Of a stretch of 64,000 nucleotides of DNA, positions 7,796 through 23,886 are shown piece after piece; position 1 is the first letter of the stretch; every line of letters starts with the position of its first letter. The DNA is taken from the NCBI RefSeq assembly GCF_037969725.1, contig NZ_CP150203.1:1690001-1754000 (forward strand). Direction: 5' to 3'. The DNA comes from Paenibacillus sp. FSL W8-0426. Its GTDB lineage: Bacteria > Bacillota > Bacilli > Paenibacillales > Paenibacillaceae. The position numbers and the translations under genes were made by a program. The notes below the pieces were generated by a model. That model was not told the DNA's origin. It saw nothing but the letters and a program-made list of their open reading frames with translations, and made no database searches.

Positions 7796-8817
7796 TCATG
7801 ACGATTTTAATACCCGCATATGAGCCGGATGTCCGTTTGCTCAACCTGATCATGCAGCTCCAGACGTTCCGGCTTGGTCCCATCGTCATTGTGGATGACG
7901 GCAGCGGCCCGAAATACCGGGGAATCTTCGAAACGGCAGAAGCTTATGGCTGTACTGTCCTGACTCATCCCGTCAACCTGGGAAAGGGGCGGGCGCTTAA
8001 AACGGGTTTCGGGCACATACGCGAATTCGGCCCTCAAGGATACGTGGTCTGCGCGGACAGCGACGGACAGCATTTGCCGCATGACATCAAACGCGTCATG
8101 GACGCGCTGCAGCAGCAAACCGGGCCGGGCATGGTGCTCGGCAGCCGGAAGTTTGCGGGCAAGGTCCCGCTTCGCAGCCGTTTCGGCAACAGCGTGACGA
8201 GAGGTGTATTCAAATTAACGACCGGAACGAAGGTGTATGATACCCAAACGGGTTTGCGCGGTTTTCCGTATTCCATGCTGGACTGGCTCTGCGAGGTTCC
8301 GGGCGACCGTTTCGAGTACGAGATGAACATGCTGCTGAACGCCAACAAGGAAGGGTACCCCGTCACGGAAGTGTTCATTGATACGGTGTATCTGGACCAC
8401 AACAAATCTTCCCACTTTCGTCCGCTCGTCGACTCGTACCGCATCTACTTGCCGATTCTCATGTTCAGCACCTCGTCCGTCATATCGGCTTTGATTGATT
8501 TTGCGCTGCTGTTCCTCATCCAATACATGACCAGCAATCTGTTCCTGTCGGTGGTGACCGCGAGGTTGTGCAGCTCGATCTTCAATTATACGATGAACCG
8601 CAAATATGTCTTCTCAGGCGGCAAAACGTCGAAGATCAGCAAATCGATGCCAAAATATTTCGCGCTCGTTGTTCTGGTTTTGTTCATGAACTACGGCCTG
8701 CTGTATTTCTATAACCAACAGTTGATCATTCCACTGATCATTGCCAAGGTGCTGACGGAAGTGACCATTTTCCTGTTCAGCTATTGGGCGCAGCGCAGAT
8801 TCGTATATCGTTCTTGA
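7792..8817 (+). CDS. Glycosyltransferase family 2 fused to GtrA-like membrane domain
   Basis: Protein of 341 residues. Residues 1-215 are a GT-A-fold GT2 domain of the dolichol-phosphate/undecaprenyl-phosphate sugar synthase type (ILIPAYEPD, IVDDGSG, NLGKGRALKTG, ADSDGQH, GSRKFAG). Residues 218-341 have four hydrophobic helices matching GtrA flippase-like proteins. The predicted role is to attach a sugar to a lipid carrier and help move it across the membrane for glycan decoration. The start overlaps the preceding stop as ATGA; ATG 7798 is an alternative start. A terminator follows. Confidence 0.92.
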   Translation: MIMTILIPAYEPDVRLLNLIMQLQTFRLGPIVIVDDGSGPKYRGIFETAEAYGCTVLTHPVNLGKGRALKTGFGHIREFGPQGYVVCADSDGQHLPHDIKRVMDALQQQTGPGMVLGSRKFAGKVPLRSRFGNSVTRGVFKLTTGTKVYDTQTGLRGFPYSMLDWLCEVPGDRFEYEMNMLLNANKEGYPVTEVFIDTVYLDHNKSSHFRPLVDSYRIYLPILMFSTSSVISALIDFALLFLIQYMTSNLFLSVVTARLCSSIFNYTMNRKYVFSGGKTSKISKSMPKYFALVVLVLFMNYGLLYFYNQQLIIPLIIAKVLTEVTIFLFSYWAQRRFVYRS

Positions 8818-8848
8818 AAGGGGCAAGCGTGAAGCTTGCTCCTTTTTT
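8818..8848 (+). terminator. Rho-independent terminator of the glycosidase-GT2 operon
   Basis: The arms GGGGCAAGC and GCTTGCTCC enclose a 4-5 base loop and are followed by six T residues. Confidence 0.88.
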
Positions 8849-8977
8849 GACTTGAAACGTGACCCGAGGAATGCTGGCAAGCGATCCCCATGAGAAGTTA
8901 CGGCGACGAAATAAGTCCCGAAACTCCGTTGGCGTGGTGTATGATGGAATAACATACAGCTCTATAGGAGGGAAAAC

Positions 8978-9724
8978 ATGAAAACGATTGCTGTCATATC
9001 CGATATTCATGGCAACCATCTTGCGCTGGAGGCGGTGCTGCAGGACATTGCCAAGCGAGATGCGGATCTGGTCGTTAACTTGGGAGACAGCCTGTTTGGC
9101 CCCATCGATCCGCTGGCGACCGCAAAACTATTGATGGGACATGAACGTATGATTCACATTATGGGGAATTGCGACGCACTGCTGCTAAAGGCAGAGCATG
9201 AATCGCTTACCCATGCTTTCGTCAGGCCGCTGCTGGATGAAACCATGCTGTCATGGATCGGTACGTTCCGAGCAACCTGGTCTTACGAAGGGTTAATGTT
9301 CTGTCACGGGACACCTTGGCTGAATCATGCGTATTTGCTGGAAAAGGTAACTCCCGATGGGGTTCATTATAAGGATGCTGACCGATTGGAAAAGGAGCTT
9401 GATCCGATCCCGGAGAAGGTCGTGTTTTGCGGGCATAGCCATGTGTTCAAATCGCTGCACTTACCAGGAGGGAAAATGGTGGTGAATGCCGGCAGCGTCG
9501 GACTGCCCGCCTATGAGGACGAAGAGCCCTATCCACATGTCATGGAATCCGGAACTCCCTATGCAGAGTATGTTCTGGCGCATCGTCAGGAAGCAGGGAA
9601 CTGGGTTGTGGAGCATGTCCTGGTCGAATACGATTGGGAACAAGCCAGCCGGATTGCCTTGCAGAACGGACGAGAAGACTATGCGTTTGCATTGCGAAAC
9701 GGGGAAAGCCAAACCTTAAGGTAA
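8978..9724 (+). CDS. Metallophosphoesterase family protein
   Basis: Protein of 248 residues of the calcineurin-like YfcE/MJ0936 phosphodiesterase type. All metal-binding blocks are present in order: ISDIHGNH (residues 8-15), NLGDSLFGP, MGNCDA, FCHGTPW and FCGHSHV. Such enzymes use two metal ions to hydrolyse phosphodiesters or nucleotides in the cytoplasm. AGGAGGG precedes ATG 8978. The segment GSVGLPAYEDEEPYP is the usual C-terminal family signature. The physiological substrate cannot be told from sequence. Confidence 0.92.
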   Translation: MKTIAVISDIHGNHLALEAVLQDIAKRDADLVVNLGDSLFGPIDPLATAKLLMGHERMIHIMGNCDALLLKAEHESLTHAFVRPLLDETMLSWIGTFRATWSYEGLMFCHGTPWLNHAYLLEKVTPDGVHYKDADRLEKELDPIPEKVVFCGHSHVFKSLHLPGGKMVVNAGSVGLPAYEDEEPYPHVMESGTPYAEYVLAHRQEAGNWVVEHVLVEYDWEQASRIALQNGREDYAFALRNGESQTLR

Positions 9725-9766
9725 GGTTGCTTTATAGACTGACCCATCAAGAAAAGGAGTGAGCCC

Positions 9767-10474
9767 ATGTTTTTGCGGAGCGTGGAATTGATGAAAGAGC
9801 ACGTGGACAAGCCGCGTCAATATCCGTTCACCATCCCGGCGATCAAACATTTGACCCGGCTGAAATTCCGCTGCAACGTCACGTTTTTCGTAGGGGAGAA
9901 TGGATCGGGCAAGTCGACGCTGCTGGAGGGCATTGCCCACCAATGCGGCTTCAACACGGCCGGAGGCGGAAAGAACAACGTCTATGACGTGCATGCCTCC
10001 GAATCGGCGCTGGGCGATTATTTGCGTCTGGCCTGGTTGCCCAAAATGTCCAACGGCTTTTTCATGCGTTCGGAATCGTTCTATCAGTTCGCCGAGCATA
10101 TTGACGATGTAGGAGCAACTGGACGATATGGCGGACGCTCTTTGCTGGAACAATCTCATGGTGAATCTTTTTTGAGCCTGTTCGTGAATCGCTTCGATTC
10201 GAAAGGCATCTATCTGTTGGACGAGCCCGAGGCAGCGTTGTCGCCGGCCCGGCAGCTGTCCCTTTTGCGAATATTGCATGACATGTCATCCACGTCCCAA
10301 TTCATCATCGCCACGCACTCCCCGATTTTGCTCGGATATCCGGATGCGGAGATTTGGAGGTTTGACGAGAACGGCATTTGTACGGTGGACTATGAGGAGA
10401 CAGAGCATTATCAGATCACGCGCAGCTTTTTGGAAAACCGGAGGCGGATGCTGGATGAATTATTTAGAGATTAA
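9767..10474 (+). CDS. AAA/ABC-type ATPase (SMC/RecF-like ATP-binding protein)
   Basis: Protein of 235 residues. Walker A is GENGSGKST at residues 43-51; an HGESFL motif in the position of the ABC signature is followed by Walker B YLLDEPEAALSP and the switch IIATHSPILLG. There is no coiled coil or membrane part, so this is a compact single-domain ATPase of the kind annotated as AAA family ATPase and related to RecF/OLD nucleotide-binding domains. AAGGAG precedes ATG 9767. Only 16 bases separate it from the first EF-G-like gene, and spacing stays under 25 bases through 13088, so it leads a probable operon with the EF-G-like pair. Confidence 0.9.
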   Translation: MFLRSVELMKEHVDKPRQYPFTIPAIKHLTRLKFRCNVTFFVGENGSGKSTLLEGIAHQCGFNTAGGGKNNVYDVHASESALGDYLRLAWLPKMSNGFFMRSESFYQFAEHIDDVGATGRYGGRSLLEQSHGESFLSLFVNRFDSKGIYLLDEPEAALSPARQLSLLRILHDMSSTSQFIIATHSPILLGYPDAEIWRFDENGICTVDYEETEHYQITRSFLENRRRMLDELFRD

Positions 10475-10490
10475 AAGAGGAGGTTGTTAT

Positions 10491-11501
10491 ATGAAAACCG
10501 TTCATTGGGCTGATCTATGCATGACTTACACGATTGATCGGCCTAAGACGAAGGAAGAACTGAAAAGAATGCTGCTGACCCTTAAACGTTTGGCAGAAGA
10601 GGGATTGAATTTTGCGGTTTACGGGGAAGAGGTTCGAAAACAGTTCATCATTGCGGTACAAGGGGAGCAACAATTCAATCAGATGATGGAGCGGCTAAGG
10701 CATGAGTTTGGGTTGGAAGTGATGGTTGCGGAGCAGGAACCCAAGGTATTGTATAAAACGACGATTGGAAAAACGGTAGAATCGGAAGGGAAATACATTA
10801 GGGGGTATGCAGGAGGCATACCTAAATTCGGCGTTTGCTCACTCAGGTGTGAACCTCTTCCGCGAGGCGAAGGGTATGTATTTGTAAATATGATTGAAGA
10901 TGATGAAGTGATTCCCGAGGAGTACATTCCAGCGGTTGAAGAAGGTGTGAAGAGCACGATATATAGGGGACTTACCGGCGGTTTGCCTATCGTCGATGTC
11001 TTAGTCCGTTTGTATGACGGGGCATACCATGAAAAAGATTCAAGCGTATTTTCATATAAGGTTGCTGCATTTATAGGTTTTAGGAATGGGTACAGTCAGG
11101 CCGATCCTGTTCTTCTTGAGCCGTATATGAACGTTGAAATGAAGGTAACCCACAACAATGCCAACCTGCTGTTACTTGCTGCACAACTCCTTGGTCCTAA
11201 CAGTAATGTGAGCGAACATGTGGATGGCAGCATTTCGTTGACGGCTGAAGTTCCTTTACGGGAGTGGCTTCAGTATCGTGAGCAGATTCAAGAAAACCTG
11301 ACAGTTGCCGGGCAATGTAACGTGGAGTTGGCGTATTATGATCCGGTCCCGGAGGATCTGAAGGACACGATAATTGAGACATCCCATTTGGCTGATGCGT
11401 ATTACGAAGATCTTTTTCAATGGGAAAAGTGGGGCAAGGAGTCTGAGGATCATTATTTGAATGACTATGTGGATTCATTCTGGGGAGATCCGAGAGGCTA
11501 A
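10491..11501 (+). CDS. GTPase-less elongation factor G-like protein (domains III-V only), copy 1
   Basis: Protein of 336 residues from ATG 10491 (AGAGGAGG upstream; the longer open frame from 10278 overlaps the ATPase gene and is rejected). It aligns by eye with EF-G from the start of domain III: TIDRPKTKEELKRMLLTL and LKRLAEEGLNF match the domain III opening, residues 84-205 match domain IV (EPLPRGEGYVFVN, IPEEYIPAVEEG, LPIVDVLVRLYDGAYH, DPVLLEPYM) and 208-295 match domain V (EVPL, YYDPVPEDL). There is no P-loop or G domain. The domain IV tip histidine that enters the decoding centre in EF-G is kept (H180). An acidic 40-residue tail follows. The fold suggests ribosome or ribosome-like binding without GTP hydrolysis; actual function is unknown. 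Confidence 0.88.
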   Translation: MKTVHWADLCMTYTIDRPKTKEELKRMLLTLKRLAEEGLNFAVYGEEVRKQFIIAVQGEQQFNQMMERLRHEFGLEVMVAEQEPKVLYKTTIGKTVESEGKYIRGYAGGIPKFGVCSLRCEPLPRGEGYVFVNMIEDDEVIPEEYIPAVEEGVKSTIYRGLTGGLPIVDVLVRLYDGAYHEKDSSVFSYKVAAFIGFRNGYSQADPVLLEPYMNVEMKVTHNNANLLLLAAQLLGPNSNVSEHVDGSISLTAEVPLREWLQYREQIQENLTVAGQCNVELAYYDPVPEDLKDTIIETSHLADAYYEDLFQWEKWGKESEDHYLNDYVDSFWGDPRG

Positions 11502-11515
11502 AACAGGAGGGAGGA

Positions 11516-12562
11516 GTGAAGAAAGTGCAGATCAGCAACACTGAAAATTATATGTACATAACGGTATCGAGACCGGATACCAAAGGAGAATTTGAAGGTA
11601 TGTTCCGTGCCTTAAAGAACATGGCTGACGAGGGTTTGAATTTTGATATATACACGGATGAGGATCATAAACAGATCATTCTTGCAGGTCCGGGCGAATT
11701 GTATCTTAGAGAAATGGCAGAACAATTGAAAGATCGGTTTGGAATGAAATTGTCGGCAGGAGAGCCGCAAGTATTGTACAAAACGACGATTCGCCAAGCG
11801 GCCACCGCTGAAGGACGGTTCATCAGACAGAGCTCCGGCAGGGATAGTTACGGGCATTGCTGGATCGCCATCGAACCGCTCCCCAGAGACGAGGGTTACA
11901 TGTTTATCAATGAGGTTGAGGATGAGAACATTATCCCGGCAATATATATTCCGGCGATTGACGAAGGTATTCAGAGCATCATGCACCGTGGAATTCTAGG
12001 ACGCTTTCCCATTGTGGACATCCGCGTACGCCTGCTCAACGGTTCCTACAACAGCACGGATGCGAGCATGATGGCTTACAAAATCGCCGGATTTCTTGGG
12101 TTCCGAGAAGCCTACAATCAGGCGTCGCCCGTTGTACTCGAACCATGGATGAAGGTCAGGTTTCCCGTTGAAGAGAAGCACATTTTACAAGTGAACGATG
12201 TACTGGAACGCATCAATGCACGCAATATAGAATATGTGGAAATGACGGGAGGAGGCGCTGTTGTTGCAGATGTAGCGCTGCGACTCCTTATGCCGGGGCA
12301 ACTATACCAGATCGTGAGCGGCATGGAAGCTTCCACCCGATCTTATTTCAATAATAAAATACGAAATAACAGGGATTTCATGGTACAATTTTCATATTAT
12401 GATGAAGTTCCTCCTGAACTCGAAAACGATATCATTGATCGGTCCGACTTGAAAGATGCCTATCATTACAGTCATGAATATCACTTTTCTGAACACTGGG
12501 ATACAGAAGAAACAGAGCGGCATCTGAAGCAATTGATTGAATCGTTTTGGGGAGAGGGTTGA
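11516..12562 (+). CDS. GTPase-less elongation factor G-like protein (domains III-V only), copy 2
   Basis: Protein of up to 348 residues, 14 bases after copy 1 and clearly its paralog. GTG 11516 is the longest start; GTG 11525, 8 bases after GAGGAG, is an alternative. Domain III retains AGPGELYLREMAEQL, closest to the EF-G block GMGELHL. Domain IV has RQSSGRDSYGH (104-114), almost the EF-G loop, then EPLPRDEGYMFIN, YIPAIDEGIQS and FPIVDIRVRLLNGSY. The tip histidine is replaced by Asn (N179). Domain V follows (VVLEPWMKV, YYDEVPPEL), then an acidic tail like that of copy 1. No GTP-binding motif is present. The two copies may form a heteromeric pair or have diverged targets. Confidence 0.88.
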   Translation: MKKVQISNTENYMYITVSRPDTKGEFEGMFRALKNMADEGLNFDIYTDEDHKQIILAGPGELYLREMAEQLKDRFGMKLSAGEPQVLYKTTIRQAATAEGRFIRQSSGRDSYGHCWIAIEPLPRDEGYMFINEVEDENIIPAIYIPAIDEGIQSIMHRGILGRFPIVDIRVRLLNGSYNSTDASMMAYKIAGFLGFREAYNQASPVVLEPWMKVRFPVEEKHILQVNDVLERINARNIEYVEMTGGGAVVADVALRLLMPGQLYQIVSGMEASTRSYFNNKIRNNRDFMVQFSYYDEVPPELENDIIDRSDLKDAYHYSHEYHFSEHWDTEETERHLKQLIESFWGEG

Positions 12563-12583
12563 ACCACGATAGGAGTCGATATA

Positions 12584-13075
12584 TTGAGTATAGCTTTGGT
12601 TATAGTAGACATGCAGGAAACGGTCGTAAGGAACAAGCTGGATCAACAAACGATTGACCACGCTTGCGAGTACATCAATCACGTGGCGGACCAGCTTCGG
12701 TCCAACAGTCACTTTGTCGTTCATGTGCAGGACGTGGAGGGTATGGACGAAGCCGGCCGGGAGCAGCTTCATTTCATTCCCGAAGTCGATCTGCATGACG
12801 TTGATTTTATCATCACCAAGGAGAGCTCGAATGCGTTCTGGCAGACCGAACTGGAGCAGGTGCTCGAAAGCAAAGGCGTGAAACTGGTGATTATCGCCGG
12901 ATTTGCTGCAGAGGAATGTGTTCTGTTTACATACAACGGTGCGCTCGAACGGGGCTTCAAGGCAGTAATGCTTCAAAACGGGATTCTCAGTATACATACG
13001 GATGCGGTAGCTTCTGTGTATCGGGATCGAAACGTGATTTCGTATCCGGTTGTCGATTATCTGACGCGAGTCTAG
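12584..13075 (+). CDS. Isochorismatase-type cysteine hydrolase
   Basis: Protein of 163 residues with the family triad visible: Asp in ALVIVDMQ, Lys in IITKESSNAF and the catalytic Cys in GFAAEECVLFT. Members hydrolyse amides or enol ethers such as isochorismate, nicotinamide or carbamoyl compounds. The start is TTG 12584, placed 8 bases after AGGAG, giving the standard N-terminus MSIALVIVDMQ. It is 21 bases after the second EF-G-like gene and probably on the same transcript. Its substrate is not predictable. Confidence 0.88.
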   Translation: MSIALVIVDMQETVVRNKLDQQTIDHACEYINHVADQLRSNSHFVVHVQDVEGMDEAGREQLHFIPEVDLHDVDFIITKESSNAFWQTELEQVLESKGVKLVIIAGFAAEECVLFTYNGALERGFKAVMLQNGILSIHTDAVASVYRDRNVISYPVVDYLTRV

Positions 13076-13087
13076 GCGTACAAACAA

Positions 13088-13615
13088 ATGAATCAAATAT
13101 CGGTGCCTGAACGATTGGAAAACGAATTGGAGTCCCTGCGCATGTCCAATACGTCGATGCAGGTTTTCATGGAATTGCTTGCACTAAGCGGATCGTCGCT
13201 AGCTTCAACCGACCGGGACAAACAATTTGTCATTTGGCTTGCCCAGAGGGACCAGAACGTTTTGGGCAGGGGGACGGTAGGTTTCGATCTTGAGGAGATG
13301 CCGTGGCTGCCCGAAGACGTTGAAGAGAGCAAGATCTTTTTGTTATCCGTCATTGATGGGGTCATCGCTCGAACACGATGGTCCGTGTTGGATTACGAAC
13401 CGAATGAAGAATGGGTGCTTAGCCGTTTTGAACATTTTCGCCGGATGATCGAAGCCTTTGAGGAAGAAGATGTGGATGCCCGGCATTACCTGGAGTGGAG
13501 TGCGTTGGATGATGACGAGGACGAAGGAACCATCCCCGATGGATATCCCATGTGCGCGGCTCATGGCGTATATTTGTCCTGCTTGGGCTGCATCATCTGC
13601 AATGCCGACGAGTAA
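13088..13615 (+). CDS. Hypothetical protein with C-terminal zinc-ribbon-like cysteines
   Basis: Protein of 175 residues, acidic and mostly helical, starting 12 bases after the isochorismatase-like gene. The last 20 residues hold CAAHGVYLSCLGCIICN, a Cys/His cluster likely to bind one zinc. No family is recognised. The ribosome site is weak, which suggests translation coupled to the preceding gene. Confidence 0.7.
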   Translation: MNQISVPERLENELESLRMSNTSMQVFMELLALSGSSLASTDRDKQFVIWLAQRDQNVLGRGTVGFDLEEMPWLPEDVEESKIFLLSVIDGVIARTRWSVLDYEPNEEWVLSRFEHFRRMIEAFEEEDVDARHYLEWSALDDDEDEGTIPDGYPMCAAHGVYLSCLGCIICNADE

Positions 13616-13700: not shown

Positions 13701-14345
13701 ATGCCATGGCCCATGGTTCATTTTGCGATTGCTGCTGCGATCGAGCCCAATCCGTCTCCCGAGTTTTTGCTCGGGAGCCTTGCTCCTGATGCCATACATA
13801 CCAGAAGTAATGATCGGTCCGAAAAAGCCAAAACCCATCTGATGATTGAAGCAGGCAGGTTTGCGACCGATGAGGAACTGGGAGATTTCCTTGAAATTAA
13901 CAGACACCGGGCGATCTCTGATCCGGCTTTTATGGATTACTTACGCGGATACATCGCCCATGTGTACACGGACCGTGTATGGACGTTTGATATCTACCCT
14001 CCTTATGAAACGCATCCCGATGGCAGAAGAGTATACAACCAGGATGTGGCGAAGCTGGAGTTCATGCTGCTGCGCAACCGCTCTGATGCCCGTCAATGGT
14101 TGGATCGGCTGAGCGAAGGCAAAGCTTATGCATTGGCAGGTTTGGGGGAAGAGGAAATTTATCCATACCGGGAAGCTAAGCTGGATTTCCTGAATGATGC
14201 CTCGCAAGAGCCTGATACAGATTTGACTGTAATCTCGATGGCGGAAATGGATACGTTTATTCAGGATACGGCGGATTCGCTTAGAGCATTGTTTGAACAA
14301 TGGGGGTGCAGTTCATTTATCGCTCAAGTCGGGGAGCCGGAATGA
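13701..14345 (+). CDS. Zinc-dependent phospholipase C-like (PF00882-type) protein, copy 1
   Basis: Protein of 214 residues. The start MPWPMVHFAIAAAI, the segment LLGSLAPDAIH and the later YIAHVYTDRVW give the His/Asp pattern of zinc-dependent phospholipase C/S1-P1-type helical hydrolases. There is no signal peptide. GGAG lies 8 bases before ATG 13701. A paralog with the same three blocks lies at 23191-23886. Substrate unknown; intracellular proteins of this type are usually listed only as hydrolases. Confidence 0.72.
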   Translation: MPWPMVHFAIAAAIEPNPSPEFLLGSLAPDAIHTRSNDRSEKAKTHLMIEAGRFATDEELGDFLEINRHRAISDPAFMDYLRGYIAHVYTDRVWTFDIYPPYETHPDGRRVYNQDVAKLEFMLLRNRSDARQWLDRLSEGKAYALAGLGEEEIYPYREAKLDFLNDASQEPDTDLTVISMAEMDTFIQDTADSLRALFEQWGCSSFIAQVGEPE

Positions 14346-23144: not shown

Positions 23145-23190
23145 CATGTGAATGAAGGATCGTGCCTTAACGAAAAAGGGGGATAAGAAT

Positions 23191-23886
23191 ATGCCTTTGC
23201 CGATGGTTCATCTGAATATCGCTTCATTACTGGCCAACAAGTGGCATGTCGGTGAGCACCAAGGAGCGTTCTATCTGGGGAATATCGCGCCCGATTCGAT
23301 CCATATGCGGGATGGAGCGACGCGCGAAGACAAACGGCATACGCATTTTGAGCCCAAGACCGAGGGCGATTACATGGCAAGGCTGCAGGAGCGTTATTCA
23401 ACGCTTGTCGAGCAAACCAATGACGAAGGGCGAAAGTGGTTTGTGCGTGGTTATTTCATGCATGTGCTGACAGACTACATATGGTTTCGGAGCGTACATC
23501 CGCAATTCGTGAAAGAAGTCACCGGCCTGGAGCGGGATGAGGGGATGAAGCAGGCACGGGACCAGTTGAACCGCTTATATTATCAGGAAACGGATCAGGT
23601 TGACTTCGACCTGTATCAGCAGGCGGAGTGGAGTTCCGAAGTGTGGCAGTGGCTTGGCCGGACCCGTGGCTACGACATGCAGGATCTCCTGATAGCCGAC
23701 GAGATGGAGCGCTGGCGGGATCGCACATTATCCTTTTTGAAGGAAGGATCGCAGCAACCCGGCATTGTTCCGCAGTACATTACGGCCGAAATCGTTGAAC
23801 GATTTGTGTCCGAAACGGCGAAGCGGCTTCAAGCCGTGCTTCAGGCGTGGGATGCCCGAATCCCTCTCTTAGAACAGACATCCTAG
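23191..23886 (+). CDS. Zinc-dependent phospholipase C-like (PF00882-type) protein, copy 2
   Basis: Protein of 231 residues from ATG 23191 behind AAAGGGGG. It shares with the protein at 13701-14345 the start MPLPMVHLNIASLL, the block LGNIAPDSIHMR and YFMHVLTDYIWF. An extra HTHFEP segment near residue 50 adds possible metal ligands. No signal peptide. Likely a hydrolase of unknown substrate. Confidence 0.75.
   Translation: MPLPMVHLNIASLLANKWHVGEHQGAFYLGNIAPDSIHMRDGATREDKRHTHFEPKTEGDYMARLQERYSTLVEQTNDEGRKWFVRGYFMHVLTDYIWFRSVHPQFVKEVTGLERDEGMKQARDQLNRLYYQETDQVDFDLYQQAEWSSEVWQWLGRTRGYDMQDLLIADEMERWRDRTLSFLKEGSQQPGIVPQYITAEIVERFVSETAKRLQAVLQAWDARIPLLEQTS

Follow-up and report, generated by a model that had tools for sequence, protein, structure and literature searches.

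EF-G homologues without a GTPase domain form a family in Paenibacillales and may act as GTP-independent mimics of EF-G

Among described systems, the closest to the proteins reported here is EF-GC3, a laboratory fragment of S. aureus EF-G that comprises domains III-V, folds on its own and, like full-length EF-G, binds the resistance protein FusB, according to the passages of PMC4725979 used here. By cryo-EM, FusB sits on EF-G domains IV-V and makes further contacts with domains I-III on the ribosome, and this complex shows large discrepancies from an earlier NMR model of FusB with domains III-V (both from excerpts of PMC12008383). A survey of bacterial translational GTPases based its trees on the G domain; candidates without G motifs were left out and annotated separately as exceptions, and a survey of that design may pass over EF-G relatives that lack the domain (excerpts of PMC1780047). 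Among the matches listed from openly licensed PMC papers, none describes naturally occurring EF-G homologues that lack a G domain, which agrees with the initial annotation of this DNA, whose author was aware of no such system.

The window, by which we mean the whole 64,000-nucleotide stretch of Paenibacillus sp. FSL W8-0426 that was analysed (NZ_CP150203.1, positions 1,690,001 to 1,754,000), holds two adjacent genes of this kind (Table 1). They are intact, selected members of an EF-G-derived family whose proteins start at domain III, have the III-IV-V fold and lack domains I-II; that this is a family of G-domain-less EF-G homologues we consider close to certain. As the initial annotation had proposed, both proteins consist of EF-G domains III, IV and V in order, followed by an acidic tail, and domain profiles and the structure model agree on this layout. 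The GTPase domain is absent, also as proposed: PF00009, the G domain profile, has no match in copy 1 or copy 2, and EF-G profiles align to both proteins from domain III onward only. Domain V of copy 2 falls under the Pfam cut-off by sequence yet is present in the structure model. The structural comparison suggested at the outset returned full-length EF-Gs as the nearest solved structures to both copies, and the VIA-align lists leave the C-terminal tail uncovered (past about residue 302 in copy 1 and 314 in copy 2). Against the NCBIfam EF-G equivalog the window proteins score 188 and 199.6 bits, below the cut-off of 659.4, as is expected because their architecture is partial. Aligned members, several with start codons that we assigned, start with the first strand of domain III, where FPDPVIEIAVEPKTK of the host fusA aligns with FFEPYMIITINKPKTM.

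Table 1. Features of the two EF-G-like genes and the gene upstream (window positions)
Feature	Position	Strand	Basis
AAA_21-type ATPase gene directly upstream; probably a local neighbour, not an obligate partner	9767..10474	+	
Copy 1, putative ribosome-binding-site-like AAGAGGAGG	10475..10483	+	inference from sequence
Copy 1, G-domain-less EF-G homologue, 336 aa	10491..11501	+	intact ORF, domain profiles, structure comparison
Copy 1, EF-G domain III, residues 17-80	10539..10730	+	
Copy 1, EF-G domain IV, residues 84-204	10740..11102	+	
Copy 1, EF-G domain V, diverged, residues 207-293	11109..11369	+	
Copy 1, family-specific acidic C-terminal tail, about residues 298-336	11382..11498	+	
Copy 2, G-domain-less EF-G homologue, 348 aa, GTG start	11516..12562	+	
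Copy 2, EF-G domain III, residues 19-82	11570..11761	+	
Copy 2, EF-G domain IV, residues 84-203; loop II His replaced by Asn	11765..12124	+	
Copy 2, EF-G domain V with insertion of about 13 residues, about residues 207-309	12134..12442	+	
Copy 2, family-specific acidic tail, about residues 310-348	12443..12559	+	

The same truncated architecture recurs in at least 12 intact genes, free of internal stops, from at least 10 genomes, all within the window's order, which we take to be Paenibacillales. Five of 75 genomes in the window's genus carry the gene (E <= 1e-55): the window strain and Paenibacillus sp. JJ-223 with two copies each, and P. illinoisensis NBRC 15959, Paenibacillus sp. ACRRY and one further genus member with one. 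A family-level search (394 genomes) added at least one divergent member, G118, from another genus. The order-level search (392 genomes spread evenly over a larger group) added four more, in a genus of another family, g37, where 4 of 25 genomes have the gene; 16 genomes matched at this level, 10 with the short protein and 6 with full-length EF-G as judged by open-frame length. At class level (398 genomes) 74 matched, two with the short protein, both from the window's genus, and 72 with full-length EF-G, again by frame length. Divergent members may be missed in these counts, since the E-value limits were strict and the family, order and class searches limited scoring to five first-look candidates per genome. 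In protein databases copy 2 has two relatives besides itself (94% and 54%), copy 1 has five ahead of the EF-G background, and the G118 type has three. The tandem pair, which the initial annotation had weighed as part of a system, is found in 2 of the 10 known carriers and is not supported as such.

A phage or plasmid source was considered and rejected. The best 20 of 24 phage tblastn records lie at 27.6-41.0% identity and the best 20 of 163 plasmid records at 33.0-37.2%, both in the EF-G range, and a scan of viral contigs gave 27 pattern matches with no relative among them.

We built a maximum-likelihood tree of 54 rows: 16 from the family, 37 EF-Gs from Paenibacillaceae, other Bacilli and further bacteria, and a Tet-like outgroup on a very long branch (fusA loci L053 and L064 were omitted, as the cutting motif was not found in them). 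The family rows cluster apart from the EF-G rows, with modest support (90/71) at an open fork, and do not group with the host fusA. Copy 1 and copy 2 fall in different subgroups, each supported at 100/100, so the window pair is not a recent duplication.

Could these genes be debris or an artefact of annotation, either a broken or frameshifted EF-G or one half of a split EF-G whose G domain lies elsewhere? Full-length EF-Gs as the nearest solved relatives are what such pieces would have, and our search for a separate G domain took in 4 of the 10 carriers, with proteins identified by frame length alone. Even so, we regard this as very improbable. The intact reading frames share a common start point and tail across genomes, stand apart from host fusA in the tree, and have a pooled omega (dN/dS) of 0.31 over five close pairs (p 4.6e-19 against equality); an ATPase gene stops 16 nt upstream of copy 1. 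A split EF-G supplied with its G domain in trans was rejected, as PF00009 found no orphan EF-G G domain in the four carriers searched (G000, G041, G118, G472). All PF00009 matches above 60 bits in these four lie in frames of 401-906 aa, those of 401-417 aa adjoining fusA as EF-Tu does (396 aa in G000), and weaker matches lie in frames of 305-460 aa. By length and place we take these to be EF-G, EF-Tu, LepA/TypA, RF3, IF2, Tet-like factors, Era, Der and similar proteins. These findings contradict the frameshift or inactive fragment that the initial annotation had itself raised, and given the lack of an orphan G domain in those four carriers the protein probably acts without a motor.

Selection maintains the EF-G-like proteins but constrains them less than it does their neighbours. 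Single pairs give omega values of 0.21-0.36; by part, on domain boundaries that we assigned, pooled omega is 0.27 for domain IV, 0.28 for domain V, 0.23 for the tail and 0.50 for the N-terminus with domain III. Neighbouring genes are 3 to 12 times lower (ATPase 0.04-0.08, glycosyltransferase 0.02-0.04, LysR 0.06-0.09), and dN alone is 1.4- to 17-fold higher in the EF-G-like genes. Part of the omega contrast stems from dS, which is below that of the neighbours in most pairs (0.128 against 0.497 and 0.457 in the pair G011-G046); recent exchange between lineages, or composition, could be the cause. The genes are also AT-richer than the compared neighbours in five other hosts, with GC of 37.1% against 48.5-50.3% in G472 and 38.6% against 46.0-47.2% in P. 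illinoisensis, the gap being small in G118 and G041. The window copies have 45.7-45.9% GC against 52.1% for the ATPase gene, which is unexceptional there, as 3 of 32 other measured ORFs are equally AT-rich or more so.

The gene sits at variable sites. Its neighbour is an ATPase gene in five genomes, a LysR gene in four and ABC-2 permease/GNAT in one, and relatives without it allow the edges to be placed. In g37, homology between the carrier G472 and G452 continues through the final base of the LysR stop codon and restarts about 1.1 kb on, G452 having a different ORF in that place. Between G046 and G058 it ends 4 nt before the ATPase end and restarts right after the EF-G-like stop codon; between the window and G048 it ends at the ATPase stop (10474) and restarts at 12591, breakpoints that put both copies in one block. 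Two genomes without the gene keep a piece of its 3' end before the next gene, about 62 nt in G021 and about 47 nt in G072 (around L021 557-703 and L022 3004-3142), so the gene has been lost in at least these two; the same scar was sought in G071, G058 and G019 and none was seen.

The position after the ATPase gene (window 10475-12583; also L018, L021, L022, L026 and L034) is a variable slot, filled according to genome by an EF-G-like, metallophosphoesterase-like, DinB-like or isochorismatase-like gene, some of these named by eye. The window's own phosphoesterase gene (8978-9724) lies upstream of the ATPase gene instead of in the slot. The g37 slot holds MazE/MazF toxin-antitoxin-like genes in one relative (L126:17527-18149), and one carrier has a MazF-like piece after its EF-G-like gene (L103:10922-11230), both named by eye. 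Elsewhere in the window, 13701-14345 and 23152-23886 are distant paralogues; the former is weakly zinc-phospholipase-like, and the JJ-223 homologue of its product is 27% identical to the product of the latter. Outside the window and far from the locus, the host genome encodes a 654-aa Tet-like/EF-G-like GTPase (L015:3500-5464).

Linkage to the ATPase gene, the other element that the initial annotation had put forward as a system, is not supported either. An ATPase homologue is present in 70 of 75 genomes of the genus, intact and at least 74% identical in 45 of them, and 25 of the 30 ATPase loci examined have no EF-G gene. The two genes adjoin in 5 of the 10 known carriers. The remaining five have their nearest ATPase homologue (50-52% identity) on a different contig from the EF-G gene. 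We therefore rejected a two-component operon as a general rule, for want of constant linkage. In one genus member the ATPase gene, conserved elsewhere, is split into two frames (G014:C1:2912241-2912947). None of the PADLOC defence models matches the two EF-G-like proteins at E <= 0.01, and the upstream ATPase has partial matches to many AAA-containing models in that set. Rfam and tRNA scans of the window gave no matches, and a promoter and terminator scan of 8700-13200 returned three promoter-like sites (5.8 in shuffles) and five terminator-like sites (3.8 in shuffles), nothing usable.

We asked which EF-G residues the family retains, counting as EF-G-invariant any position at least 95% invariant in the 37 EF-G rows and as kept any such residue found in at least 75% of the 16 family rows. 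On these terms, and with our assigned boundaries, the counts of invariant positions kept by the family are 28 of 49 for domain IV, 11 of 42 for domain III and 8 of 37 for domain V. The tRNA-mimicking arm, domain IV, has thus stayed closest to EF-G, and domains V and III have drifted. Retention in domain IV exceeds that in domain V (Fisher p 0.001) and domain III (p 0.003), tests in which positions are not independent and several of the 16 rows are near relatives. The control, a single row from a host Tet-like factor, has no such bias (10/42 in III, 18/49 in IV, 15/37 in V). In domain V, 18 of the 37 invariant positions, including the T-Q-G-R run, are kept in at most 25% of family rows. The tightest EF-G-like constraint thus falls on the tRNA-mimicking arm, and domain V has lost much of its EF-G-like conservation. 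Within domain IV, at least 75% of family rows have the Gly, Ser and Asp of loop II; 12 of 16 rows have its conserved His, presumably E. coli H583, and the other four, copy 2 among them, have Asn there. The Gln of loop I, which we take to be E. coli Q507, is found in 4 of 16. Domain III is less acidic than that of EF-G (mean charge -3 against -7), and domain V is more acidic. The tail, which is 37-42 residues long (26 in the G118 type) and has a charge of -4 to -9, has invariant Ala, Leu and Trp and ends in (S/T)(F/Y)W.

A ribosome ligand is one possible reading of this pattern, and we hold it as a serious though tentative one. Here the protein would place domain IV in the decoding-centre side of the A site, as EF-G does but independently of GTP, and would block, guard or idle ribosomes in the manner of a hibernation or protection factor. 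Retention of the domain IV fold and of most of loop II is consistent with this, as is the less acidic domain III; EF-G domains III-V mimic tRNA (in the part of PMC3150367 cited), and a ribosome state with FusB in which only EF-G domains IV-V are ordered has been solved (an excerpt of PMC12008383). In that same state domain V holds EF-G's large-subunit contacts (PMC12008383), and a family that has lost so many invariant residues there is somewhat less likely to dock as EF-G ordinarily does. The rarity of the loop I Gln and the acidic tail also count against such a ligand.

The fold may instead have been recruited to a task outside translation, for example to bind RNA or to take part in regulation alongside the ATPase or LysR neighbour. 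Divergence from EF-G, neighbours that vary by lineage and a new tail under constraint would all suit this, but we find it unlikely because EF-G-invariant residues are preferentially kept in domain IV, which would be unexpected if the EF-G interaction surface were irrelevant.

Our preferred reading, to which we give a probability of roughly 40%, is that the protein is a GTP-independent mimic of EF-G that would serve as a decoy or competitor through its domain IV face, a view that draws on residue retention and on analogy. As a surface mimic working without nucleotide, it would show the EF-G domain IV/V face to whatever normally binds that face on EF-G, candidates being a FusB-family EF-G-binding protein or an EF-G-directed inhibitor or toxin. 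In stoichiometric amounts it could shield the cell's real EF-G or tune its use. There is a precedent by analogy, as the natural architecture is that of the FusB-binding fragment EF-GC3. Against a decoy counts that one built on domains IV and V could do without domain III, and the residues kept in domain IV may be structural. We prefer a decoy to an A-site ligand by a small margin, the two fitting nearly equally well. Faster divergence, AT-richness, variable sites, loss and patchy spread fit a role in an arms race or under antibiotic exposure, not housekeeping. It is tempting to speculate that Paenibacillales harbor a family of mobile, fast-evolving, motor-less EF-G mimics that protect translation, as stoichiometric GTP-free decoys or A-site guards, against agents directed at EF-G or at the elongating ribosome, a picture we offer tentatively. 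To our knowledge, no target mimicry of this kind involves elongation factors.

FusB-family proteins (PF07299) are encoded in all ten known carrier genomes, which is suggestive only. The family is also common where no EF-G gene was seen (14 of 21 genomes in g37, 20 of 39 in g3 and all 3 of those tested in the window's genus), and its presence is accordingly weak support for a decoy. In g37, two PF07299 genes occur in 4 of 4 carriers against 3 of 21 others, and a FusB gene lies about 7 kb from the EF-G gene. This second FusB gene occupies the same place in G450 and G452, which lack the EF-G gene, and the genes around it recur in G477; the linkage is probably synteny, and we rejected it as proof of function. 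In the window strain a PF07299 gene (G000:C1:1675902-1676150) lies about 14 kb before the window start and about 24 kb from the EF-G-like pair. The distance is 25-43 kb in other carriers with both genes on one contig, and PF07299 lies 37-38 kb from the ATPase gene in two genomes without the EF-G gene.

If these are natural, selected EF-G halves, EF-G mimicry as a nucleotide-free way to control or protect translation can be tested directly, with binding of the roughly 38-kDa protein to FusB or the ribosome as a ready assay. They would also be tools to separate the role of domain IV from GTP hydrolysis.

How, then, does the family compare with known systems? It is derived from EF-G and fails EF-G's defining feature: without domains I-II it has no GTP site, and it differs from EF-G (fusA, EFG I) further in its diverged domain V, its new acidic tail and its separate group in the tree. 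The Tet(M)/Tet(O)-class tetracycline ribosome protection proteins and EFG II are likewise EF-G paralogues with domains III-V, but these are GTPases with domain I, which the family lacks, and Tet-class profiles give the window proteins 20-69 bits against cut-offs of 775-1425. IMPACT/YigZ are small proteins that resemble EF-G domains IV and V and have no G domain. The FusB family also has no GTPase domain and acts at EF-G domains IV-V; FusB, however, is a helical bundle with a zinc finger (from an excerpt of PMC12008383) and binds EF-G, whereas the present family resembles it. EF-GC3 has an identical domain content, but it is an artificial truncation of ordinary EF-G without such a tail, as far as the cited part of PMC4725979 describes it, and the family is natural.
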